DNA from: Gallionella sp. | Lineage (GTDB): Bacteria > Pseudomonadota > Gammaproteobacteria > Burkholderiales > Gallionellaceae | Length of the DNA: 64,000 nt | NCBI GenBank assembly: GCA_028707275.1 | Contig: JAQTUP010000001.1 | Location: 248,001 to 312,000, forward strand | Reading direction: 5' to 3' | Shown here: positions 1,775 to 63,957 of the stretch, in pieces | Position numbering within the stretch: the first letter of the stretch is position 1 | How the letters are laid out: the number at the start of each line of letters is the position of its first letter | The notes under the pieces: model-generated | Told to the model about the DNA's origin: nothing | Database searches by the model: none | The model's input: the letters and a program-made list of their open reading frames with translations, nothing else | Translations under genes and position numbers: made by a program

Positions 1775-2316
1775 AACTGATGTTACGCAGTAACCTCAGT
1801 CGTGTATTCAAATCAACTTCGCCGGGGGCAGCCCGGCTGCTGGTTACTTTTTCTTGCGTCGCCAAGAAAAAGTAACCCAAAAGAAGGCGACCCCGGCGCG
1901 CCATCGCACCGATCGGCCACTGGCAGATCGGTGCGATTCCTTCGATAGTCAGCAAACAACGGGGCTGCGGAACTCACACGATCTGCTACGCATCCACGTG
2001 TTCAAACAGTCCTCGCCGAACCTCACCGTTGTTTACTGACAATCTTCTGCGGCGCACAGGGGTTTGGGGTGGAACGCCAAAGTGCCGTCTCAAAACAACT
2101 CATTAGGAAGGTAGAAGTTGCAAAAACACCATTTATTTTATGTAAGACGTAGGGTGGAAAAAGCGTAGCGTTTCCACCAAATGGTGAATACGTCGCTCCT
2201 GTCTGCCGACAGGCAGGCACAGGCAGGTGCGTTCCTCTATCCACCCTACAATTGGTATGTTTGTAATTTCTCTTTCCCTTAACCCTGATTTTTTGGGCTT
2301 GTGCGTAACATCAGTT
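1775..2316. mobile_element. Repeat element with ACTGATGTTACG ends, nested copy
   Basis: The left end reads AACTGATGTTACGCAGTAAC and the right end TTGTGCGTAACATCAGTT, forming terminal inverted repeats. The body contains a palindrome (GTTACTTTTTCTTG..CAAGAAAAAGTAAC near 1850-1878). A diverged copy in the opposite orientation lies at 39,963-40,347. This copy has a 175-bp unit (2105-2279) inserted exactly between CAACTCAT and AACCCTGATT, which are adjacent in the other copy. No transposase is present, so it is MITE-like. The small reading frames inside it look spurious. It fills the gap between aroA and the TIR gene. Confidence 0.75.
2105..2279. repeat. 175-bp repeat unit, copy A
   Basis: This unit runs from AGGAAGGTAGAAG to TTCTCTTTCCCT. 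By eye it matches 22,510-22,684 at every base. It contains the inverted pair GTAGGGTGGA (2149-2158) / TCCACCCTAC (2240-2249) and a nested palindrome CTGTCTGCCGACAGGCAG near 2200-2217. It splits the larger element at 1775-2316. Confidence 0.9.
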
Positions 2317-3085
2317 ATTCACCGGACTTGCTACGGTCATAAGTGACCATTAGTTCTTTTAGAACATTTTTCGGCAACCGACCTTCGAAACGGTCAATCA
2401 CCATCTCAAATGGCATGCCAGATTTAGCCATTTCGATAGCCTGTTCAAAAAGGATGTCCGATGGCATTCTCATCTCCCTCATACGATAGCGTTCGCTCTC
2501 ATGCTCTAGTCGACGAACTTTTGAGTTCAGCGATCTAGTGTTTTCAAGAATTTCACCTAAAACATCTTCCTTGGCTCTTGGTTTTGAGGGAGGCTGTGCT
2601 TCCGTAGTTTCTAAAATACGTTTAAATTTATCCTCGAATTGCGACCAGTAAGTGTCGAAGACCTGTTCAAGAATTCGGTTGTCCAGCCTATTAGCAGCAA
2701 GAGTATTGTTAAGCGTCTTCACTAGACCAAGTACGCTATCGCGGGTTGGTAACGTGTGATTAAATTGAGCAAGTGGATCCTCTATGTCCTTAGGCTCCAA
2801 ATCTACCAACAGTGTACATACTCGCGATGTAGAAAGTCCCTTCGCTAATGCGCCAGCCTCAAAGAGAATCCAAGGTCTCGCTTTATTCTCTTGTGTGAGG
2901 CAGATGATCCCAACTGTCGTATCCTTTAATTGATCGTTGATCTCACCGAACCATAGGGAGCCGCGATCAAGGTCGCGCGTTGATATCCAAGGGCGCGATG
3001 CCTGAATTACGCAACATAGCCAATCGCTAAGTAAGTTAGCAACTTCCTTACTTCGTAGCCCTGACCAACTGAGAAATATTTTCAT
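2315..3085 (-). CDS. TIR-domain protein
   Basis: The protein has 256 residues. The N-terminal 130 match the prokaryotic TIR fold: KIFLSWSG at the start, GSLWFGEI around 42-49, and PWILFEAGALAKG around 71-83, where Glu76 is the likely NAD-cleaving residue. The C-terminal part (about 175-220) is charged and probably coiled coil. Bacterial TIR proteins often act in phage defence by degrading NAD+ or making signalling nucleotides; that role is inferred here. No Thoeris-type partner (ThsA) is next to it; the neighbours are a toxin-antitoxin pair upstream and a repeat element downstream. The stop codon TAA is directly fused to the repeat end (TAA-CTGATGTTACG). Base composition is AT-richer than the flanking aro genes, which suggests transfer. 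Confidence 0.8.
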   Translation of the reverse strand: MKIFLSWSGLRSKEVANLLSDWLCCVIQASRPWISTRDLDRGSLWFGEINDQLKDTTVGIICLTQENKARPWILFEAGALAKGLSTSRVCTLLVDLEPKDIEDPLAQFNHTLPTRDSVLGLVKTLNNTLAANRLDNRILEQVFDTYWSQFEDKFKRILETTEAQPPSKPRAKEDVLGEILENTRSLNSKVRRLEHESERYRMREMRMPSDILFEQAIEMAKSGMPFEMVIDRFEGRLPKNVLKELMVTYDRSKSGE

Positions 3086-3191
3086 GTGTGGTTGCTTCTC
3101 GCTAGTTATTGTCCAAGCAAGGCTCTGGTGTCAGCTCTTGCAATCACGCATGGGGGGGGGCACTCTACCCCATGAATTCGGAAAACATTGG

Positions 3192-3500
3192 TCACGCAGC
3201 GACTTCGCGGAGTACTTCCGGTCTGCGATCAGCAATAGCAATAAGTGTTTTGGCAGCGCCACTAGGTGATCTGCGTCCTTGCTCCCAATCTTGTAGTGTG
3301 CGTACGGAAACGCCAAGAAGCTTTGCAAAGGATGATTGCGGCAAGCCCGATTTCAGGCGAGCTGAAACGACTGGCGGGATAGCAACTTTGTGAATTTTCG
3401 CAGCGTGTCCCGCTTTCATTTCGCGTACGGATTCCAACAGTTCGGCACCCAGATCACGAGCAGCATCGCGCTTTTGAAGTTCATTTTCAGTCATGGACAT
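3192..3500 (-). CDS. HigA/NadS-like HTH antitoxin
   Basis: This 102-residue protein has a C-terminal XRE-type helix-turn-helix (SSFAKLLGVSVRTLQDWEQGRR, about 57-78) and an N-terminal toxin-binding part. Its start overlaps the end of the upstream toxin gene by about 10 bp, which is the usual HigB-HigA order. It should neutralise the toxin and repress the promoter at about 3812-3839, whose spacer holds a 15-bp palindrome. It lies between tyrA and the TIR gene in an accessory block. Confidence 0.85.
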   Translation of the reverse strand: MSMTENELQKRDAARDLGAELLESVREMKAGHAAKIHKVAIPPVVSARLKSGLPQSSFAKLLGVSVRTLQDWEQGRRSPSGAAKTLIAIADRRPEVLREVAA

Positions 3501-3805
3501 GTTAATTCCTCCTTCACAGCCTTCAATATATGAGCAGGTATATTGTCATGCTCATTCTTCGCATAGATCAACAACAACCAAATCGTGCCATCCTCAAGCA
3601 TGTTGTAGTAGATGACACGAACACCACCGCTTTTACCGCTGCCACTGCGCGCCCATCGTACCTTACGACATCCGCCCGAGCCTCGCACAACATCCCCTGC
3701 ATCAAAGTGCTCCGCAATCCATACGGCAAACTCGCCACGCTCGTCCTCAGTCCAATAGTCGGAAACGTGTCGACTGAAAATTTTGGTTTCGGCAATAGTA
3801 AGCAT
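3491..3805 (-). CDS. HigB/RelE-family toxin
   Basis: The protein has about 104 residues from the ATG at 3805 (MLTIAETKIF). It shows the RelE/HigB pattern: GGCRKVRWARSGSGKSGGVRVIYY, then WLLLIYAKNE, then a C-terminal helix ending at the antitoxin start. Family members are ribosome-dependent or free mRNA endonucleases. An in-frame ATG at 3823 is possible but would lie inside the predicted promoter, so 3805 is preferred. The predicted transcription start falls at about the same base, implying a leaderless mRNA. Confidence 0.8.
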   Translation of the reverse strand: MLTIAETKIFSRHVSDYWTEDERGEFAVWIAEHFDAGDVVRGSGGCRKVRWARSGSGKSGGVRVIYYNMLEDGTIWLLLIYAKNEHDNIPAHILKAVKEELTCP

Positions 3806-3811
3806 GGGTAA

Positions 3812-3839
3812 ATAATACGGCATTGCCGTACATAGTCAA
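3812..3839 (-). promoter_or_regulatory. Promoter/operator of the higBA-like pair
   Basis: On the minus strand TTGACT (3839-3834) and TATTAT (3817-3812) are separated by 16 bp. The perfect odd-length palindrome TACGGCATTGCCGTA (3816-3830) fills the spacer and touches the -10 box, so antitoxin binding would block RNA polymerase. This is the expected design of an autoregulated toxin-antitoxin operon. Confidence 0.65.
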
Positions 3840-11214: not shown

Positions 11215-12213
11215 TTATTTTATTTTAGGAAATGCAAAACCTGCGTTAGCCGCTATTTTAGCCGCTAACGATTCAAAATCTTTATAACAAAGCGCAACCG
11301 CTTCCAGATGCGCCCCAATCGCGCCATCCGCCGACTTCAGGAAAAAAATCGGTTTATTTGCCTCCATCGCCATCGGCATCAGGCTGCGGTAATGCTTTAA
11401 TAAAGCTAGTTTATATGGATCATCCGAAATGACTGGAATATCAGCCCTGATCGATTCCCCCAACACAGACTCCCGGTAAATCTTAGGCATCTTGTCCAAC
11501 CAACGCTGGTAAGCTCTTACCGGGCGACTATCGCGCATTCCATGTTGCATCACCACATAACCCGCAGGCTGCATTTCGCCTGACGGCACTGCAATTGTTT
11601 CATCCTGAGGTAATTCAGACAGACGTTTCTTCCATCCCGCGCGCCACTCTCTCAATGACGGCCCCAGATTCTTCAATCCTTGCAATGAAAACAAATCTGG
11701 CGCCAAAGGAATGACGACCTGTTCAGCAGAAATTAACGCGGAACGGTTTATCGCGCCCAAATTTGGCCCCACATCTATCAGTACAACGGCAGCATCTTCT
11801 GCCGCCTGCAAAATAATTCGGTAAAAAGCGGTTGTCACACGGAAGGCATCAGGCTTCCCGTCCAGACACTTGGGCCAGTTTTCTGAAAGCGATTCTTCAA
11901 AACGCGACAAACCAAGATCACCTGAAATCAAGCCCAGATTTTCGGTAATTCTTTCCACGTGCGGCATGGAAATATCGCCCACACCACGCAGAATCGGACG
12001 TATCGCGCCATACACCGTTTCAAGATGTTCACCGTCTGACCAGAGCTCCTCCAGACGTTCTTCGCGCAAAAACATGGAGGTCAAATTAGCCTGAGGATCA
12101 AGATCAACAGCCAATGTTTTAATGCCTTTATCCGCAAACATCCATGCAAGATGGTACACCAACGACGTTTTCCCTACTCCGCCCTTGTTATTAAAGAAGG
12201 CTATCGTTTTCAT
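11215..12213 (-). CDS. ParA-family P-loop ATPase
   Basis: The protein has 332 residues. It has the deviant Walker A motif KGGVGKT (10-16) and [11 protein letters not shown] as Walker A' region, placing it in the ParA/MinD/Soj ATPase superfamily. Members dimerise on ATP and bind DNA or membranes. No ParB or centromere-like repeats are visible nearby. Its ATG overlaps the stop of the AlbA/GHKL gene (ATGA), so the two are translated together and probably work together. The region is AT-richer than the flanking core genes. A chromosome-partitioning role is unlikely for an isolated copy in a biosynthetic operon; a defence or regulatory role is inference. Confidence 0.85.
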
Positions 12214-13397
12214 GATGGCCTCGGATAAATTCTGACCAATACGATCTGCTCTTCAAAAACAAATTCAGCCGGCGGGTTGCCATTTTCTTTCAGCAAGGCC
12301 TGCGCACGCTGAACGCCATAGCCAAATTTGTTCACGAACCCAAGCGATTTCATAGCCTCGGCGATCACCGGATTACGATAACTATTCCGCGTCGGAAAAT
12401 TGTCAGCATTGGCCTCACCATACAAACCGCCCGGACTTTGAATTTCGATGTGGTCACTAAACACATAAAAACGAACAGGAGTATTGCTCTCATAATTTCG
12501 GTGCATTACCGCATTCATCAACAGTTCGCGCAACGCCCATTCAGGGTAATTCGGCAACAACCGTTCCTCTAATCCGCTGACGCGATGCATGGACGTTTGT
12601 ATGATTGTCTTGATTCTTAATTCCATCTCGCGTAGCGTCGAACTTAAGTCACCCGATATTTCTGCCTGATCTTCCGGCATGTCGGTCAGGTCAGTACCTG
12701 GCAATTTCAGATATTGAATATACGCCCCAAACAAAAAAAACCTTGGATTTTTACCGAATAATAAAATCCCTGCGAAGCTCGGACACGAGCGCTCAAAGTC
12801 ATACATTCGTAAAGAAGCGAGCTGCTGTTGAATATCACGGTGATTCGCCGTAATCGTTTCTGCATCCACCGCTTCCCGGCGATAGGAGTCAAACTGACCC
12901 AATGCCAAATCCTCCAGCGTAGCTCCAACACAAGGACGAACATCAAAAGAACGTGCGAACGAGATACGCCGTTCACTTAGCACACGCTCTTCTTGCTCGT
13001 TGGCAACCGCTTTGCGAGGCCCCACCCGTATATAGACTCGCCCCTTGTAACGTACGGGTGGCATGTCAGATGGCAGCACTTCTACCACAGCGACATCCCC
13101 ACCATTCAAACAAAACTTCTGCACGCTCATTGCGGGTGAGGGTAATACATTCCCGTCAGAACGAATTGCCCCCAACTTCAGTAACAGCGCATCTGTCACT
13201 TGCAGTCCGGACAAACTCCCGTCATCCTTCACCCCAATCAGCAAATACCCGCTTTGGCGGTGATTAGGCAAATCATTCGAAAAAGCACAAATCGCCTGCG
13301 CAAACTTATCGGTATCGGACGTTGAGATCGTGCGTTCGACACGATCCGACTCCATATCAGACAGCAAAGCCAATAATTGTGCTTCTTCGATTAACAT
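12210..13397 (-). CDS. AlbA_2/Schlafen-domain protein with GHKL ATPase-like C-terminus
   Basis: The protein has 395 residues. The N-terminal domain (about 15-130) begins with MESDRVERTIS and contains AICAFSNDLPNH and GYLLIGVKDDG, the pattern of the AlbA_2 (Schlafen-like) family, where acidic residues can form a nuclease site. The C-terminal part has ELLMNAVMHRNY and IEIQSPGGL, as in HATPase_c-type modules. These proteins are annotated as putative transcription regulators or helicase-like; some Schlafen-type domains cleave tRNA. Its ATG lies 3 bases after the gyrA stop and its stop overlaps the parA-like start, so gyrA, this gene and the ATPase are coupled. Confidence 0.82.
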   Translation of the reverse strand: MLIEEAQLLALLSDMESDRVERTISTSDTDKFAQAICAFSNDLPNHRQSGYLLIGVKDDGSLSGLQVTDALLLKLGAIRSDGNVLPSPAMSVQKFCLNGGDVAVVEVLPSDMPPVRYKGRVYIRVGPRKAVANEQEERVLSERRISFARSFDVRPCVGATLEDLALGQFDSYRREAVDAETITANHRDIQQQLASLRMYDFERSCPSFAGILLFGKNPRFFLFGAYIQYLKLPGTDLTDMPEDQAEISGDLSSTLREMELRIKTIIQTSMHRVSGLEERLLPNYPEWALRELLMNAVMHRNYESNTPVRFYVFSDHIEIQSPGGLYGEANADNFPTRNSYRNPVIAEAMKSLGFVNKFGYGVQRAQALLKENGNPPAEFVFEEQIVLVRIYPRPS

Positions 13398-28827: not shown

Positions 28828-29976
28828 TCAGATTCCTTTATTCATAAATTGCAGCGCGACCCAGGCCTGACCCAGCGAAATAGAACTATCGCCGGGTTGC
28901 TTTGAAGTCAGCACCTGCAAGCCCTGAGCGGCCAGTTCAGCCGACAAACTGCGCAATAAAATTTCGTTGTAAAAACAGCCGCCGCCCAGCGCAACATGGC
29001 GAAGCTCGCCTGCGGCGCGTTGCACCCATACGGCCAGCCCGGCGCTTACCGTGGCATGGAACAGCGCGGCGCCACAGGCCGCATCCGTGCAATCGGCCAG
29101 CTTTTCCAGCAAGGGCGAAAAATCCAGTACACCGTTTTCATCGATGCGCCAGCCCTCTTCCATCGGCTTGATCTGCCGTTGCGCCAGCTTTTGCAAGGCA
29201 ATCGCGGCTTCTGCTTCAAAATTCTGAATTTCGCACACGCCCAGAAGCCCCGCTGCGGCATCGAACAAGCGCCCCATGCTGCTCGTCACCGGACAGTTCA
29301 GGCGACGTTCCAGCATGGCGGCCACGGTCGCCGCACCCGACTGATTCGGAAAACGCTGCGCGATCTCGTCCCCTCGCCCCAGCTGATGCAACACCGCTGC
29401 CGCCATGCGCCACGGTTCCTTCGCGGCACGGTCGCCGCCCGGCATCAACATGTGCGCCAGATGCCCCAGCCGCCAAAACTCCGCCCCGTCAACCAGCAGC
29501 AACTCGCCACCCCAGGCCGTGCCATCCGTCCCCAGCCCCACCCCGTCCAGCGCCAGCCCCAGCACGGGTTCGGTATACCCGTGTTCGGCGCAGATGGCGG
29601 CGATATGCGCGTGGTGGTGTTGCACGGCGAGCGTCGGCAAGCCCCGCTTTTCTGCAAAAGACAATGCCAGCTGCGTGCTGTAGAAATCCGGGTGCAAGTC
29701 GTGTGCGACCATGGCTACAGGCAGCTGTGCGCACATGAGTTCCACCGTATCGACCAGCATCAACCGCGCCTCGATGCTGTCCAGATCGCCTATCAGTTCC
29801 GAGACCTGTGCCTGATCGCCTTGCGTGACGCAGATCGTATTTTTCAGCCACGCGCCACCGGCCAATACCGACAGCCCGGAACAAGGTAATAAAATTGGAT
29901 TTTTCAACCCAGACAACCCATTAACCACATCTCCCCCCACGCAGGGGGAGAGCCTGTGAGTGGATAGAAACTTCAT
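28828..29976 (-). CDS. hypF: Short HypF: Kae1-like carbamoyltransferase domain only
   Basis: The protein has 382 residues and matches only the C-terminal half of Hyp[42 protein letters not shown], and [26 protein letters not shown]. Full HypF is about 750 residues with acylphosphatase, zinc-finger and YrdC-like domains that make carbamoyl-AMP; these are absent here and upstream. About the first 22 residues come from a CTCCCCC-GGGGGAG repeat (about 29,926-29,955), so the true start may be further in. Stand-alone Kae1-like HypF forms exist in other genomes. The missing activation step must come from another gene or this pathway is impaired. Confidence 0.85.
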
Positions 29977-31944: not shown

Positions 31945-32092
31945 GTCAGTCCCGCTGTGATCGTTCAGGTCGAGTAGCTTAACCCATACGGATGCCGATT
32001 GCATGACGATCTGCCCCGACTATCAAACCCGGCTGCATGGGCGTAAGATACGCTGCATGAACCGGGATATTTTTCCGCCAGAGGGCACTCTC

Positions 32093-33895
32093 ATGGTCAG
32101 TCAAATCAACACGCATGCAGGATACCTGGATACGATACTGGATCGCCGCCAGCACAACGCCCACAATTTGTTGCAGATTTTGATCGAGGCTCAGGAGCAC
32201 TACGGGTATATCCACCCCGATGCGCTTGACTATCTGAGCGAGCATCTGCAACTGCCACGCGCCAGGATTGAAGGCGTGGCGGGCTTTTATTCCTTCCTCC
32301 ATCTGAGGCCTGCGGGCGTCTATCGCGTATTGTTCTCCGACAACATCATCGACCGCATGGCGGGCAGCCTGGATCTGATGGCCGGCATGTGCAGCCAGTT
32401 GTGGGTGGAGCCTGGCAAGGTATCCGAAGACGGGCAGCTTTGTATCAGCACCACCTCCTGCACCGGCATGTGCGACCAGGGGCCTGCGATGCTGGTGAAC
32501 AACCTGGCCATCAACCGGCTCGATGCGTCCCGCGTGAATGCTATCTGTGAACTGATCCGCGAGCAGGTGCCCGTCACCGCCTGGCCTGTCAGCTTTTTTT
32601 CGATAGAAGATAACATCCGCCGCCGCGACATCCTGCTGGAGAGTCATTTTATCTCAGGATCGGCACTGAACGCCCTGATACAGCGCGGCACGCAACAGAC
32701 TTTGCAGGAGATCAAGACTTCCAGGCTGCGCGGACGCGGCGGGGCCGGCTTTTCGACCGGCGCAAAATGGGAGCTTTGCCGCGCGGCGACCGGGGATCAG
32801 CACTATGTCGTGTGCAATGCAGACGAAGGGGAGCCTGGCACCTTCAAGGATCGCGTCCTGTTAAATAACTTCGCCGACATGGTGTTCGAGGGCATGACGC
32901 TCTGCGCGCGCATCGTCGGTGCGGCGAAGGGCTTCCTCTACCTGCGGGGGGAATACCGTTATCTGCTGGATCATTTGCAGGCGGTGTTGCAGCATCGTCG
33001 CCAGCTGAACCTGCTGGGAGAGGCCATACTCGGTCTTGATGATTTTAATTTCGACATCGAAATCCATCTGGGCGCGGGCGCCTATATCTGTGGCGAAGAA
33101 TCCGCCCTGATCGAATCAATGGAGGGCAAACGCGGCACGCCGCGCAATCGCCCGCCCTTCCCCGTCACGAACGGCTATCTCGACCAGCCGACGGTGGTCA
33201 ACAATGTGGAGACTTTCGCGGCCGCCAGCCTGATCGGCCTGCGAGGGGGAGACTGGTATGCCCAGATCGGCACCGACACTTCCAGCGGCACCAAGATTCT
33301 TTCAGTGTCAGGCGATTGTGAGCGCCCCGGGCTGTACGAATATCCCTTCGGTGTGAGCGTCTGTCAGGTGCTCAGTGATTGTGGCGCACAGGATACGCAG
33401 GCGGTGCAGATCAGCGGCCCGTCGGGCATGTGCATCGCGCCCGATGAATTTTCAAGACGCATCGCCTTCGACGACATACCGACTGCGGGCGCCTTCATGG
33501 TCTTCAACCGGAGCCGCGACATGTTTGAAGTGGCGCGCAACTTCGTACACTTTTTCGCGCATGAGAGTTGCGGGTTTTGCACGCCTTGCCGGGTAGGCAC
33601 GTCCTTGCTATCCAACATGATGGACAAGCTAAGTCATGGTCACGGCTCACCCTATGACTTTGCCGAAATCGAAAAGCTCAATGTGTTGTTGCAGTCCACC
33701 AGTCACTGCGGGCTGGGCCACTCGGCCTGCAACCCGGTGCTCGACACCATTGCGCGATTTCGCCCGGCCTATGAAAAGCGACTGGCGCACAAGGAATTCG
33801 TCCCGGCTTTCGATCTCGATCACGCACTGTCCCAAGCACGCCAGATGACCGGGCGCGATGACACGGGCGCCCACCTGGAGAGAAGCGATGTTTAA
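32093..33895 (+). CDS. hoxF: NAD-reducing hydrogenase diaphorase subunit HoxF
   Basis: The protein has 600 residues from ATG 32093, which has AGAGGG upstream; ATG 32057 is an alternative. The NuoE-like part (1-165) contains TTSCTGMCDQGPAML, with Cys123 and Cys127. The NuoF-like part has RLRGRGGAGFSTGAKW (211-226) and CNADEGEPGTFKDR for FMN/NADH, and ESCGFCTPCRVGT plus CGLGHSACNP for a [4Fe-4S] cluster. The first cysteine pair of a NuoE [2Fe-2S] site is not evident. It passes electrons between NAD(H) and HoxU. It is divergent from hupE. Confidence 0.95.
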   Translation: MVSQINTHAGYLDTILDRRQHNAHNLLQILIEAQEHYGYIHPDALDYLSEHLQLPRARIEGVAGFYSFLHLRPAGVYRVLFSDNIIDRMAGSLDLMAGMCSQLWVEPGKVSEDGQLCISTTSCTGMCDQGPAMLVNNLAINRLDASRVNAICELIREQVPVTAWPVSFFSIEDNIRRRDILLESHFISGSALNALIQRGTQQTLQEIKTSRLRGRGGAGFSTGAKWELCRAATGDQHYVVCNADEGEPGTFKDRVLLNNFADMVFEGMTLCARIVGAAKGFLYLRGEYRYLLDHLQAVLQHRRQLNLLGEAILGLDDFNFDIEIHLGAGAYICGEESALIESMEGKRGTPRNRPPFPVTNGYLDQPTVVNNVETFAAASLIGLRGGDWYAQIGTDTSSGTKILSVSGDCERPGLYEYPFGVSVCQVLSDCGAQDTQAVQISGPSGMCIAPDEFSRRIAFDDIPTAGAFMVFNRSRDMFEVARNFVHFFAHESCGFCTPCRVGTSLLSNMMDKLSHGHGSPYDFAEIEKLNVLLQSTSHCGLGHSACNPVLDTIARFRPAYEKRLAHKEFVPAFDLDHALSQARQMTGRDDTGAHLERSDV

Positions 33896-33918
33896 TAATT
33901 ATCTTTTATCGCATGCCC

Positions 33919-33950
33919 TTTCCCCAGCTTGCGGGGGAAAGTTGAAAAGG
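33919..33950. repeat. Palindromic repeat between hoxF and hoxU
   Basis: CCCTTTCCCCAGCTTGCGGGGGAAAG is followed by TTGAAAAGGGG, which also supplies the purine-rich ribosome site for hoxU. It belongs to the same C/G-rich family as the copies in hypB and before hoxY. Confidence 0.7.
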
Positions 33951-33961
33951 GGGGCGCAGCG

Positions 33962-34678
33962 ATGAGTCAAAATAATACATTTACCCTGGATGGCAAGACT
34001 GTCCCGTTTACTGACGGGCAGACCATCATTCAGGCGGCGATGGCCGCAGGCGTATATATCCCGCACCTGTGTTTCAATCCCGAGTTCAAACCGCATGGCT
34101 CGTGCAAGCTTTGCACGGTAAAAGCCAACGGTCGCCAGACGTCCTCCTGCACCCAGCACCCGCTGCCTGACATGAGGGTGGAGAGCGATACGCCCGAGAT
34201 CAACGATGAGCGACGCGCGCTGTTGCAGATGCTGTTCGTCGAGGGGAACCACTTCTGCCCGTCCTGCGAGAAGAGCGGCAACTGCCAGCTGCAGGCCACC
34301 GCCTATGAACTCAAGATGATGTCGCCGCACTTCGATCAGTTTTTTCCTGACCGCCCGCTGGACGCCTCGCATCCTGAATACCTGCTCGACTACAACCGCT
34401 GCATCCTGTGCTCGCTTTGTGTGCGCGCAAGCATTGATGTCGACGGCAAGAACGTGTTCGCCCTGTCAGGGCGCGGCATCAAGAGCCATCTGATCGTCAA
34501 TGCAAAATCGGGTCGTCTGGCGGACACCGATTTCTCGGGGGATGACAAGGCGGCGCACGTATGCCCGGTCGGCGTCATCCTGAAAAAACGCGTAGGCTTT
34601 GCCACGCCCATAGGACAACGCACCTTCGACGAGCAGCCCATCAGTGCCACGCCCCATCCAACCGTGAAAGGCGCCTGA
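33962..34678 (+). CDS. hoxU: NAD-reducing hydrogenase diaphorase subunit HoxU
   Basis: The protein has 238 residues from ATG 33962. It binds an N-terminal [2Fe-2S] cluster (Cys37, 48, 51, 63), a His97/Cys99/Cys102/Cys108 [4Fe-4S] cluster, and at least one more [4Fe-4S] cluster (CILCSLC, with HVCPVG downstream). It links HoxF to the hydrogenase dimer HoxYH. The order hoxF-hoxU-hoxY matches group 3d hydrogenase operons. Confidence 0.95.
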   Translation: MSQNNTFTLDGKTVPFTDGQTIIQAAMAAGVYIPHLCFNPEFKPHGSCKLCTVKANGRQTSSCTQHPLPDMRVESDTPEINDERRALLQMLFVEGNHFCPSCEKSGNCQLQATAYELKMMSPHFDQFFPDRPLDASHPEYLLDYNRCILCSLCVRASIDVDGKNVFALSGRGIKSHLIVNAKSGRLADTDFSGDDKAAHVCPVGVILKKRVGFATPIGQRTFDEQPISATPHPTVKGA

Positions 34679-34699
34679 GATGAATGCAAATAATCCATT

Positions 34700-34812
34700 A
34701 ACAGGAACATCCCCTCCCCCTTGCAGGGGGAGGTTGAGGGAGGGGGTATACCGCCTCGCTGTTCTACCCCTATCCCAACCTTCCCCCTGCAAGGGGGAAG
34801 GAGCAGGTGTCA
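34700..34812. repeat. Pair of palindromic repeats between hoxU and hoxY
   Basis: Two copies of the C/G-rich element lie head to head (34,708-34,747 and 34,766-34,806; the second reads CCTTCCCCCTGCAAGGGGGAAGG). They make the hoxU-hoxY gap 153 bp, unusual inside a hox operon. They could fold into stable mRNA stems affecting hoxY expression. Confidence 0.8.
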
Positions 34813-34831
34813 CTATTGCGGGTAATCCGGG

Positions 34832-35380
34832 ATGAATACAGAAACTAAAAAACTGAGGGTTGCGACCACCTCCCTTGCTGGGTGCTTCGGCTGCCACATG
34901 TCGTTTCTGGATATAGACGAGCGTCTGCTGGATTTGCTGCAACGGGTCGAATTCGACCGCTCGCCGCTGACCGACATCAAGCATTGCGGCCCCTGCGACA
35001 TCGGCATCGTCGAAGGAGGGCTGTGCAATGCCGAGAACGTGCATGTGTTGCGCGAATTCCGTGCAAACTGCAAGATACTGATCGCCATCGGCGCATGCGC
35101 CATCAACGGCGGCTTGCCCGCCCAGCGCAACCACTTAGCCCTGGCCACCATTCTGGAAGAGGTCTATCACGCGCAACACGGTCTGGTCGCAGGCTTCATC
35201 CCGAACGATCCCGAGCTGCCGCTGCCGCTGGACAAGGTACACCCGATACATGAGGTGGTGAAAGTCGATTATTTCATTCCCGGTTGCCCGCCCTCTGCGG
35301 ATGCGATCTGGAAAGTGCTCACCGACCTGCTCTCAGGCCGAGAGCCTGAACTGGGCCACGGCCTGATCCATTACGATTAA
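34832..35380 (+). CDS. hoxY: NAD-reducing hydrogenase small subunit HoxY
   Basis: The protein has 182 residues. SLAGCFGCHMSFLD (Cys18, Cys21), GACAINGG and PGCPPSAD supply the four cysteines of the proximal [4Fe-4S] cluster. It pairs with HoxH, the NiFe catalytic subunit. No hoxH or hoxW follows: the next gene is an unrelated signalling gene, and a repeat end starts 33 bp after the stop. Confidence 0.95.
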   Translation: MNTETKKLRVATTSLAGCFGCHMSFLDIDERLLDLLQRVEFDRSPLTDIKHCGPCDIGIVEGGLCNAENVHVLREFRANCKILIAIGACAINGGLPAQRNHLALATILEEVYHAQHGLVAGFIPNDPELPLPLDKVHPIHEVVKVDYFIPGCPPSADAIWKVLTDLLSGREPELGHGLIHYD

Positions 35381-48911: not shown

Positions 48912-49649
48912 TTAGTCCCGTGAGAGCGGAAATCCTGGCGTCAGCAGGTTCTTCATCTTCCGCACCGCAGCGTCCAAGCCGATGAACACCGATTCGGCGA
49001 TGATCGCATGACCGATGTTCAGCTCAACAATATTGGGAATGGCGGCGATATCCTGCACGTTATGGTAATGCAGACCATGTCCTGCGTTGACCTGCAAGCC
49101 CTGCGCGTGCGCGTGCAAGACGGCAACGCGTATGCGTTCGAGCTCATGATCGTGAGCTGACACACTATCGGTATCGGCATATTTTCCAGTATGCAGCTCA
49201 ATGACCGGCGCGCCAGCCAGACGAGCCGCATCGATCTGTTTTTCGTCAGGATCGATGAACAAAGACACCCTTATCCCCGCGTCACGGCAACGTTCACAGG
49301 CGGACTTGACCGCATCGAAATAACGCAGCACATCGAGCCCCCCTTCCGTGGTCAACTCTTCCCGACGCTCTGGCACGAGGCACAAATCATGCGGCTTGAT
49401 GTGCAATGCATTCGTTATCATCTCATCGGTGAGGGCGCACTCCAGATTCATGCGAGTTTGCAGCATACCGCGCAGAATAATCACATCGAGATCCTGAATA
49501 TGGCGACGGTCCTCGCGCAGATGCAGGGTAATCGCGTCCGCTCCGGCTTCCTCGCAAATGAGCGCGGCGCGCACCAGATTGGGATAACGCGCACCTCGCG
49601 CCTGGCGCAAGGTGGCAACGTGGTCAATATTAAGTCCCAGTTTGATCAT
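48912..49649 (-). CDS. pdxJ: Pyridoxine 5'-phosphate synthase
   Basis: The protein has 245 residues ([43 protein letters not shown]). It closes the pyridoxine ring from 1-deoxyxylulose 5-phosphate and the aminoacetone phosphate made by PdxA. recO, which normally sits between era and pdxJ in Betaproteobacteria, is missing; only 38 bp separate the two genes. Confidence 0.96.
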
Positions 49650-49687
49650 ATTTTTTCAGCTCCTTGATCAGTTCGCGCAAACCGTTT

Positions 49688-50623
49688 TTATTCGTATCCC
49701 AGCGTTTGCAACATGCGTGAATCATCTGCCCAGCCGCTGCGCACCTTGATAAAAACTTCGAGAAACACCTTGCCGTCGAACAATTTTTCCATATCCAGAC
49801 GCGCCTGAGTGGCGATTTCCTTGATTTTTTCGCCTTTTTTACCGAGCAGCATGACCTTGTGCGCTTCCTTGTCGACCAAAATCGCGGCACTGATGCGGCG
49901 CAACTTCTTATCCATCTTGAATTCTTCTATCACCACGCTCACCGAGTAAGGCAATTCTTCTCCTGTGAAGCGGAAGACTTTTTCGCGCAATATTTCCGAG
50001 GCCAAAAAACGCTCGCTGCGATCAGTAACATCCTCAGCATCATAGATCAGCCCGCCTACCGGCAAGAAACTGCGCAAGGTTTCGCGCAATTCTTCGATTT
50101 TTTTGCCGAACTTGGCGCTCACAGGAACGATGTCGGCAAACTTGAAGTCTTTCCCGATGCGTTCGGCGAAGTCGAACAACTGCCCCTTATCCGCGATCTC
50201 ATCAATTTTGTTGATCACCAGAATCACAGGGCGATTATCCGGCAGCAACTTCAATACCTCCTGATCTCGTTCGTCATAGCGCATTGCTTCCAGAACATAT
50301 AACACCACCTGCACATCGCGCAGACTGCTGGTCACCACGCGATTCATGCCACGGTTGAGGGCATTGAGATGCTTCATCTGAAATCCCGGGGTATCGACAA
50401 ACACAAACTGCGAATGTTCGTCCGTGAAAATCCCGTGAATGCGGTGGCGCGTGGTTTGTGCCTTGCGCGAAGTGATACTGATTTTTTGACCGATCAGATG
50501 ATTGAGCAAGGTGGACTTGCCCACATTGGGACGCCCGACGATCGCGATATAGCCGCTGCGAAAGGCTGTTTCGCAGGATACTTCATGGGTAGCTTCAGCA
50601 GCTGATTCAGTCTGTTCAGTCAT
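49688..50623 (-). CDS. era: GTPase Era
   Basis: The protein has 311 residues from ATG 50623 (a TTG at 50635 is less likely). It has the G1 motif [12 protein letters not shown]3 DTPG, G4 NKID and a C-terminal KH domain with [10 protein letters not shown]. It binds the 3' end of 16S rRNA in 30S maturation. It follows rnc, overlapping its end. Confidence 0.96.
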
Positions 50624-51305
50624 GTTTTTTTCCAATTATTTGGTAAGCGGCCAGGGCGGCTTGTTGTTCGGCATTACGGCGGCTGGTACCGCTGCCGCGC
50701 GTGGTTATTTTGAGTGAGGAAATCGCGCACTCCACCTGAAACAATTGCTCGTGGGCGGAGCCTTGCGTCTCCAGCACCCTGTAGTCAGGCAGCGTCAGGC
50801 GACGGCCTTGTAAATATTCTTGCAGCAGTGTCTTGGCATCCTTGCCCAATGTTTTCATGTCCACTTTGGCAAGATAGGGTACAAACAGGTTCAGCACGGC
50901 CTGTTCTGCCGCAACGAATCCGCCATCGAGAAAGATTGCGCCAAACAAGGCCTCGACCGCATCAGCCAGAATCGAGGGTCGGCGAAAGCCACCGCTCTTG
51001 AGTTCGCCTTCACCCAGCTTGAGCTGGACACCCAGCTTAAGCTGCTGTGCAAATAACACCAGCGTGGACTCCTTGACCAGATTGGAGCGCAACCGTGACA
51101 AGTCGCCCTCGGACAGATCAGGGTACTCACAGTATAAATATTTGGCGATCACGCAGCCCAATATACTGTCACCCAGGAATTCCAGCCGCTCATAGTGATC
51201 CGGCGCGTAGCTGCGATGCGTGAGTGCGCGTTGCAACAGCTGAGGCTGTTTGAAAACATACCCCAGCTGCCGACACAGCTCGGTGCTACCCCTATCTGCC
51301 CGCAC
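50616..51305 (-). CDS. rnc: Ribonuclease III
   Basis: The protein has 229 residues from a GTG start that overlaps the preceding gene by 14 bp. The nuclease signature is [12 protein letters not shown], with Asp and Glu metal ligands; [15 protein letters not shown] follows. The C-terminal part is a double-stranded RNA-binding domain. It processes rRNA precursors and structured mRNAs. Confidence 0.96.
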
Positions 51306-62396: not shown

Positions 62397-63302
62397 TTAA
62401 CGCCTGACTCTGCTGCTACCCGTCCGGCCTGTACCGCTTCGACGATCACCCGTTCGACCATTACTGACAGGACGACGCGCGACGGATGGTTTAGCCTGCA
62501 ACGGAACGGCAGGTTCTGCCGCCTGATCGATGAGGCCTGCCCATTCGAGCACCTGCGCCATCTCGCCCTCGCCAAGCTCGGCTGTCATGCCTCTTTTTAA
62601 TCGAGGCGGCAGGTTGATTATACCGAAACGCACGCGCATCAGACGGCTGACAGGAAGACCCAGCGCTTCAAAAGTGCGCCGGACGATACGATTGCGTCCT
62701 TCTTTCAACATCACTTTATACCAGTGATTAAAGCCCTCACCGCCCTGATCTTCGAGCTTGTCGAAGGTCACAGGACCATCTTCGAGTTCGACACCTTCCT
62801 TGAGCACTTTCGTTACCTGCTCATCCGTCATGGTGCCCTGCACACGAACCGCATATTCGCGCTCCACCTCAAAACGAGGATGCATCAGACGATTTGCCAA
62901 TTCACCCGAGGTAGTAAAAATCAACAATCCGCTGGTATTGAAATCCAGCCGTCCGATAGCGATCCATTTTTGACCGCGCAGCTTGGGCAGCTTATCAAAT
63001 ACACTCGCGCGCTTCTCCGGATCATCGCGACTGACAATCTCGCCTTCAGGCTTGTGATACAACAATACACGCGCGGCATGATCGCGCTCGCCTACCCGTA
63101 TCGTGCGCCGTTCGGTTTTGACCAGATCCCCCGGCAATACGCGCATACCCAGCGTAGCAGGTTCTCCGTTCACGCTGACGCGCCCTGCCGAAATCCATTC
63201 TTCCATGGCACGGCGGGAACCAAAACCGGCCTGCGCCAGCACTTTTTGTAATTTTTCGCCCTGTACAGGTGCGTTATCCAGCTCTATGTCTTGCTCGTTC
63301 AT
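62397..63302 (-). CDS. rluB: 23S rRNA pseudouridine(2605) synthase
   Basis: The protein has 301 residues. An S4 domain (KLQKVLAQAGFGSRRAMEEWI) precedes the RsuA/RluB catalytic domain with Asp in GRLDFNTSGLL and RIVRRTFEALGLPVSRLMRVR. A basic Arg/Gly-rich tail (about 270-301) is typical of RluB. Its ATG overlaps the last codon region of the decayed recR (ATGA). Confidence 0.94.
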   Translation of the reverse strand: MNEQDIELDNAPVQGEKLQKVLAQAGFGSRRAMEEWISAGRVSVNGEPATLGMRVLPGDLVKTERRTIRVGERDHAARVLLYHKPEGEIVSRDDPEKRASVFDKLPKLRGQKWIAIGRLDFNTSGLLIFTTSGELANRLMHPRFEVEREYAVRVQGTMTDEQVTKVLKEGVELEDGPVTFDKLEDQGGEGFNHWYKVMLKEGRNRIVRRTFEALGLPVSRLMRVRFGIINLPPRLKRGMTAELGEGEMAQVLEWAGLIDQAAEPAVPLQAKPSVARRPVSNGRTGDRRSGTGRTGSSRVRR

Positions 63303-63625
63303 ACTGTCAACTCACGTCTTTCTAGCACGGCTTGCGCCAATGTTCCACTATCCACTTGCTCCGGCTCGCCGCCAGTCGGCAAACCCCTCGCAATACGCGA
63401 CACTTTAACACCAAGTGACCGCGACAAGGTTGCCAAACATCACCCTCCACCGTAAAATTGACCGGCGGTACCCATTTACAAGTGATACGGGGCAATACTG
63501 AATATTTTCGGTCACCTTGCACAACGAGACTGCCAAAAACAAAGCCCCTGCATGATCGCGCTGCAACAAGCTATGCGCTGCACGAGTTTTTGATCCACAC
63601 GCGGAATGACAGCACCAAAATACGA
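63299..63625 (-). pseudogene. recR: Decayed recR (recombination mediator)
   Basis: Three RecR fragments lie in order but in different frames. Fragment 1 (63,492-63,569) reads LLQRDHAGALFLAVSL then CKVTENIQYC, the N-terminal/zinc-finger approach. Fragment 2 (63,439-63,462) reads VNFTVEGD. Fragment 3 (63,299-63,433) reads ATLSRSLGVKVSRIARG then LPTGGEPEQVDSGTLAQAV and the end LERRELTV with a stop. Only 29 bp lie between fragments 1 and 2, where RecR has about 85 residues (zinc finger and Toprim core); at least one frameshift separates 2 and 3, and the N-terminus is shortened. Its place between ybaB and rluB fits, since ybaB-recR is a standard pair. RecR with RecO loads RecA on gapped DNA. Confidence 0.85.
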
Positions 63626-63633
63626 GGCTGCTG

Positions 63634-63957
63634 TTAAAACGGCAATTTCATTCCAGGCGGCAAGCCCATACCTGCACCGAACCCGCTCATACGCTGCTCG
63701 CTGGTTGCAGCCACCTTTTTTACCGCATCGTTCAATGCCAAAACGATCAAATCTTCCAGCATTTCCTTGTCAGACAACACACTGTCATCCAACGATACAC
63801 GGCGCACTTCATGCGCACAACTCATGGTGACGCGCACCAGACCCGATGCGGCCTGGCCTTCAACATCGATGGTCGCCAATTCAGCCTGTGCCTGCTGCAT
63901 ATTCTTCTGCATTTGCTGAGCTTGTTTCATCAAGCCACCCAATCCGCCCTTCATCAT
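63634..63957 (-). CDS. ybaB: Nucleoid-associated protein YbaB/EbfC
   Basis: The protein has 107 residues. It starts [27 protein letters not shown] and has [21 protein letters not shown] and the C-terminal [12 protein letters not shown]. It is a DNA-binding dimer, usually in dnaX-ybaB-recR. GGGAG lies just upstream. dnaX would be past the right edge. Confidence 0.95.

Follow-up and report, generated by a model that had tools for sequence, protein, structure and literature searches.

Loss of RecOR, RuvB, RecG and RadA from a Gallionella genome that retains RecA

The stretch under study, hereafter the window, is a 64,000-nucleotide segment of the genome of a Gallionella sp. (G000:C12:248001-312000), in which recR, located between ybaB and rluB, is a pseudogene: it lies at its native site, carries several disabling lesions and has lost constraint at the protein level. 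Besides this entry into gap repair via RecO and RecR (RecOR), the lineage has lost RuvAB, RecG, RadA and RuvC (ruvA and ruvC as judged at their native sites) but has kept RecA. It is quite plausible, in a judgement that is evenly balanced, that homologous recombination for gap repair was lost as a module, the loss of RecOR having made RuvABC, RecG and RadA dispensable.

The evidence base is one assembly of 3,166,950 bases in 15 contigs (completeness 99.95%, contamination 0.04%), from an organism that we take to be free-living, considering its genus and genome size. The comparison sets comprise 76 genomes of the genus, of which 44, this one included, form a well-assembled subset, and 150 genomes of the family, the family-wide count of recR taking in 68 of the 76 genus genomes and all the well-assembled ones among them. 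Besides profile searches, stretches of the genome itself amounting to about 1.12 Mb of 3.17 Mb, overlaps included, were read. Among the references is G083, a one-contig congener of 3,162,471 bases; NCBIfam names were given to its ruvA, ruvB and ruvC, as well as to recO of G062 and to radA and recG of G090.

The recR remnant and the recO scar

The recR pseudogene (63299-63633, minus strand) is made of five collinear blocks and directly follows its upstream neighbour ybaB (63634-63957, minus strand), while the start of the downstream neighbour rluB (62397-63302, minus strand) overlaps the end of the remnant; both neighbours are open. In alignment with the intact recR of relatives, it shows against L053 deletions of 18, 7, 223 and 13 base pairs (bp) and no inserted base. 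The ATG is missing where the recR of relatives starts, shifts of frame fall at the 7-, 223- and 13-bp deletions, and the zinc finger and Toprim are not in one open frame. Going by the usual domain limits, the 223-bp deletion eliminates the tail of the zinc finger together with the opening portion of Toprim. The C-terminal block is still open (63299-63436), and this open reading frame (ORF) of 45 amino acids matches positions 159-196 of TIGR00615 (E 2.8e-7) at 30.2 bits, for a cut-off of 162.55 bits over about 196 positions.

The first-pass annotation had seen in the RecR-like pieces between ybaB and rluB a recR pseudogene, which the four deletions and the profile fragment confirm. What it described as three peptides in different frames does change frame but is more exactly five blocks, the gap of some 230 bp that it placed in the middle of the gene exists and measures 223 bp, and the damage it reported to the Toprim core is borne out within the limits just given. 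As for the intact recR elsewhere in the genome, which it proposed to look for as a check, the profile scan of this nearly complete assembly found no second copy, the best match being a fragment of 26.1 bits.

Over the remaining columns, the remnant differs from the recR of G062 (L029) at 23/107, 21/105 and 42/106 of the first, second and third codon positions, respectively (0.21, 0.20 and 0.40), against 6/107, 3/105 and 39/106 (0.06, 0.03 and 0.37) for the intact recR of L010 compared with the same gene. With the third position similar and the first two several-fold up, these values fit a loss of protein constraint, a contrast valid for near relatives only, as intact recR compared with the more distant L003 and L002 also differs by about 0.2 at the first position. 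Taking the third position as near-neutral, the loss of recR would, as a rough estimate, be old within the lineage.

About 13 kb away in the same window, and overlooked by the first-pass annotation like the further losses described below, recO is reduced to a deletion scar of 38 bp (49650-49687, minus strand) between two open genes, namely era upstream (49688-50635, minus strand) and pdxJ downstream (48912-49649, minus strand). Roughly the final 28 nucleotides of the scar correspond to the 3' terminus of recO from G062, with which this stub was aligned; against G083, the aligner scattered those bases. In the five congeners in which the order was read (L126-L130), recO sits between era and pdxJ. 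A genome-wide profile search found no recO match in the genome under study, to be compared with matches in 71 of the 76 genus genomes, some covering part of the profile, and in 43 of the 44 well-assembled ones, where the sole miss is the present genome. No recF scores above cut-off in any of the 76 genus genomes, this one included, and the absence of recF is therefore older.

That the loss of recR is unusual, as the first-pass annotation had also held, is upheld by the family set, in which recR is matched in 146 of 150 genomes and scores above the curated cut-off in 143. The three genomes with a match below cut-off are the present one, G116 (89% complete, recR at a contig end) and G093, a family member from another genus (91% complete), whose recR is in two abutting pieces with one apparent frameshift (G093:C44:99472-100078). 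The four without recR are each at most 81% complete; among family genomes at least 90% complete, the present one is the only one with a mere recR fragment. G130, without recR and recO, was considered as sharing the loss and set aside, being also without ybaB and 81% complete, and is more likely incomplete. Around rluB, the named loci are those of the best 80 of 579 RluB relatives, mostly from Gallionella, other Gallionellaceae or unnamed Nitrosomonadales; recR lies within the flanks of 62 of these 80 loci, including all 54 loci L046-L099, and the 18 without it belong to more distant relatives in which recR may sit elsewhere.

Missing branch migration and resolution genes

In G083, the ruv locus reads yebC, ruvC, a UbiA-like gene, ruvA, a YecA-like gene, ruvB and ybgC. 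The genome under study keeps the four non-ruv genes in this very order, the three ruv genes being gone: a short gap marks the site of ruvA and another that of ruvC, where short repeats fill it, and ruvB is represented by a 5' stub of 32 codons with 75% identity, in which the ATG has become ATA. By genome-wide profile, the best ruvB match reaches 44 bits for a cut-off of 299, in a RarA-like protein, against scores above cut-off in all seven relatives compared. Neither ruvA nor ruvC is present at its native site or in the stretches read, no genome-wide search having been made for either. Both G090 and G062 possess ruvA, ruvB and ruvC, with neighbours that are partly different. A candidate ruvC at L209:15705-15764 proved to be the terminal part of yebC, which an over-long query ORF had taken in.

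A cassette encoding an N6/N4 methylase, a YhcG/DUF1016 nuclease and a ResIII helicase lies near the ruvB stub (L209:7602-13386, minus strand; on G000:C14, 632000 + position). Its candidacy as a restriction-type element that replaced ruvB was rejected: a 214-nucleotide match between L209 and G062, AbrB-like by eye and coming after ruvB in G062, sits between stub and cassette, so that the insertion of the cassette and the deletion of ruvB look like separate events.

Regarding radA, the genome-wide profile gives a best score of 33 bits, in a protein that is KaiC-like by appearance, for a TIGR00416 cut-off of 403, when 71 of the 76 genus genomes are above it. The other genomes below cut-off are G139, G140 and G156 (82-86% complete) as well as G123 (95% complete), whose radA is in two overlapping pieces with one apparent frameshift (G123:C57:14340-15682). 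Like the two-piece recR of G093, this corresponds to a single frameshift or an assembly error. In G083, G062 and G090, radA adjoins yoaA or lies one gene off; here yoaA is present, a gene for a secretion-type ATPase occupies the place of radA, and no radA remnant was recognised there.

For recG, the best genome-wide profile score is 391 bits against a TIGR00643 cut-off of 659.4, in an ORF of 1162 amino acids taken as Mfd; 65 of the 76 genus genomes are above cut-off and the ten other misses are all less than 90% complete. The former recG site was not located near uvrD or in further stretches, and the absence of recG rests on the profile. A RecG candidate within the window (12210-13397, minus strand) was discarded as a Schlafen AlbA_2 protein carrying a domain that Pfam names 'recG C-terminal'; in a genome devoid of RecG, it could be mis-annotated as such. 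Altogether, the 43 other well-assembled congeners all have recO, recR, recG and radA, the last frame-split in one.

Repair genes retained and competing explanations

RecA is open over its full length, scores 566.5 bits for a TIGR02012 cut-off of 325.3 and was aligned with its counterparts from congeners and Escherichia coli. RecN, PriA, YoaA and RecQ each score above their curated cut-offs. Just below the NCBIfam cut-off (125.4 of 129 bits), RecX owes its name to its place after recA and to 59% identity with its counterpart in G052; its apparent loss, suggested at one point since no long ORF was seen after recA, was dismissed on finding an open frame with a GTG start. The RarA-like protein likewise remains under the NCBIfam cut-offs (448 of 651 bits for PRK13341.1-2, 229 of 570 bits for PRK14700). 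Helicases of the UvrD and Rep types, named by length and congener pattern, are open, and the Mfd-type ORF, named by likeness, is kept. Two copies of a 1.8-kb segment bearing a UvrD-like helicase gene, 95.5% identical and some 22 kb apart, also lie on the contig of the window (L174:4313-6087 and L175:2870-4642, G000:C12).

Adjacent ORFs of 1101 and 927 amino acids carry, according to Pfam, a UvrD-type helicase plus PD-(D/E)XK and a PD-(D/E)XK domain, respectively. As their scores miss the equivalog cut-offs (440.7 of 860.75 bits for addA_alphas, 159.3 of 486.5 bits for addB_alphas), the pair is called AddAB-type only; rates for AddA were computed with other relatives, since the G062 ORF matches AddA at just 26%. 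Within the stretches read, recJ gave no match at 1e-4, dprA a single match of 87 amino acids (E 2.7e-4, in L182), and RadD matches of 26% and of 67 amino acids only, results that leave the rest of the genome undecided.

The main branch migrators are RuvAB, RecG and RadA. With RecO and RecR no longer delivering RecA to gaps left behind replication, joint molecules would seldom arise at such gaps, and the enzymes of branch migration (RuvAB, RecG, RadA) and of resolution (RuvC) would lose most of their value and could be deleted. What would be left for RecA is a role at broken ends, alongside the AddAB-type enzyme, and/or one in damage signalling, gaps being handled otherwise, putatively by translesion synthesis for instance. 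In other words, the disappearance of RecOR would deprive the clearing enzymes of most of their use, which provides a single explanation for the whole missing set. Genetic precedents come from E. coli, where RecF, RecO and RecR bring RecA onto post-replication gaps, thereby giving rise to joint molecules, which RecG, RuvABC and RadA, among others, then clear (PMC10870727). There, the lethality of a rarA ruvB recG combination is suppressed by inactivation of recF, recO or recJ (PMC8735627) and the sensitivity of radA recG by mutation of recF or recA (PMC4786428).

Several points weigh against such a loss as a module. The order of events, RecOR going first, would be drawn by analogy from epistasis in E. 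coli and not from the sequence, and break repair also profits from RuvABC or RecG. Suppression is not general, as recG dam is not relieved by loss of recF or recO (PMC10870727), and induction of the SOS response rises strongly in rarA ruvB recF/O triple mutants (PMC8735627); a recombination-poor state should consequently carry a cost. Moreover, seven of eight proteins compared (RecA, UvrD, RecQ, RarA-like, Era, YebC and YoaA) are further from G083 in the present genome than in G062, some by less than 1%, with PdxJ as the exception showing the reverse pattern; the gap is largest for RecA (90.1% identity to G083, against 95.2% for G062). As G083 is not a proven outgroup, this merely hints at a general speed-up or relaxation. 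A different course of events, rather unlikely in our estimation, is that RecA-dependent recombination at broken ends continues, with joint molecules cleared by an undescribed replacement or else by the retained RecQ and RarA-like helicases together with PriA-dependent restart, a route in which no dedicated branch migrator or resolvase would be required.

The divergence from G083 would also suit generally relaxed selection or a raised mutation rate, under which repair genes would be lost singly, with no order or epistasis, and the focus on recombination would come in part from having looked there. This is a possible explanation, if on the improbable side. Other losses within the window agree with it, hypF being cut to its C-terminal, Kae1-like half (28828-29976, minus strand; the frame upstream is hypB-like, with no N-terminal half in between) and hoxY not being followed by hoxH: the HoxF/U/Y-like hydrogenase subunits, named by domain, span 32003-35380 (plus strand), and no hoxH appears in the next 490 bases. 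Likewise, endosymbionts of lice lose recombination genes in varied combinations (PMC11137140). However, at 3.17 Mb the genome is not reduced, recX, recN, recQ, priA, yoaA, the rarA-like gene and the UvrD- and Rep-type helicase genes are still open, the genes that flank the sites of recO, recR and ruv are kept, and the losses hit one genetically defined set.

Functional replacement would mean that an acquired mediator and Holliday-junction system, be it a phage-type annealing protein, a RusA-like resolvase or another, made the native set redundant. The retention of RecA and the AddAB-type pair, suggesting that some strand exchange persists, speaks for it, as do gene types known to spread horizontally in the vicinity, i.e. 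the methylase, YhcG nuclease and ResIII cassette by the ruvB stub; yet no such system was seen in the stretches read, no search aimed at these families having been made, and replacement appears quite unlikely. An error of assembly or binning, by which the genes would be missing from the assembly only, has to be envisaged for a genome in 15 contigs judged from its assembly alone. Against it stand the completeness of the genome, the absence of any N in the window and in the seven stretches of the genome counted (ruv locus included), and the remnants of recR, recO and ruvB, drifted or cut, each lying where it was to be expected within a long contig and flanked by conserved neighbours. Stubs and scars that are independent of one another occur at several loci, spread over two contigs, which makes such an error very unlikely.

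Elsewhere in the window, a protein at 2315-3823 (minus strand) matches TIR_2 with 24.7 bits where Pfam requires 28, with two short ORFs alongside that look toxin-antitoxin-like by eye.

Relation to known recombination-deficient systems

A close parallel is provided by the multiple knockouts of E. coli affecting the RecF pathway, RecG, RuvB or RuvC, RadA and RarA (PMC10870727, PMC8735627, PMC4786428), which combine the same loss of RecF/RecO entry and of joint-molecule processing and in which the first relieves the second. Those are laboratory constructs with a few genes removed in each, whereas the Gallionella genome represents a natural lineage without recF, recO, recR, ruvB, recG and radA and, as far as the native sites show, without ruvA and ruvC; it keeps recQ and a rarA-like gene. 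In the louse-associated Sodalis endosymbionts, RecFOR is lost more often than RecBCD, and the loss of RuvABC accompanies that of RecG, always together with RecA (PMC11137140); the Gallionella genome, by contrast, keeps RecA and has 3.17 Mb. A survey from 2005 found RecR missing from just ten genomes and RecO or RecF never present without RecR (PMC1193525), a rule that the present genome obeys. It goes beyond that pattern in having also lost ruvB, recG and radA, when the same source presents RecR and RuvAB as nearly ubiquitous and counts RecR, RuvAB and RuvC/RecU, and in a smaller measure RecG, among the core recombination genes of bacteria. Within the genus, congeners including G083 show the same gene surroundings of recO, recR and the ruv genes and likewise lack recF, but the well-assembled ones retain recO, recR, recG and radA, with ruvA, ruvB and ruvC further present in G083, G062 and G090. 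A literature search over titles and abstract openings brought up no description of this combination of losses for a free-living bacterium, the search aimed at Gallionella having returned mostly papers in which that name did not occur.

This lineage, a relative of iron-oxidising bacteria, is a natural counterpart of the laboratory multi-gene recombination knockouts and could serve to find out which role RecA plays without gap repair and the usual branch migration. As RecA is retained here, the loss of RuvABC and that of RecA, joined in the louse endosymbionts, come apart. If the module-wise loss following that of RecOR is true, it suggests that the suppression relations established in E. coli would also steer gene loss in nature.
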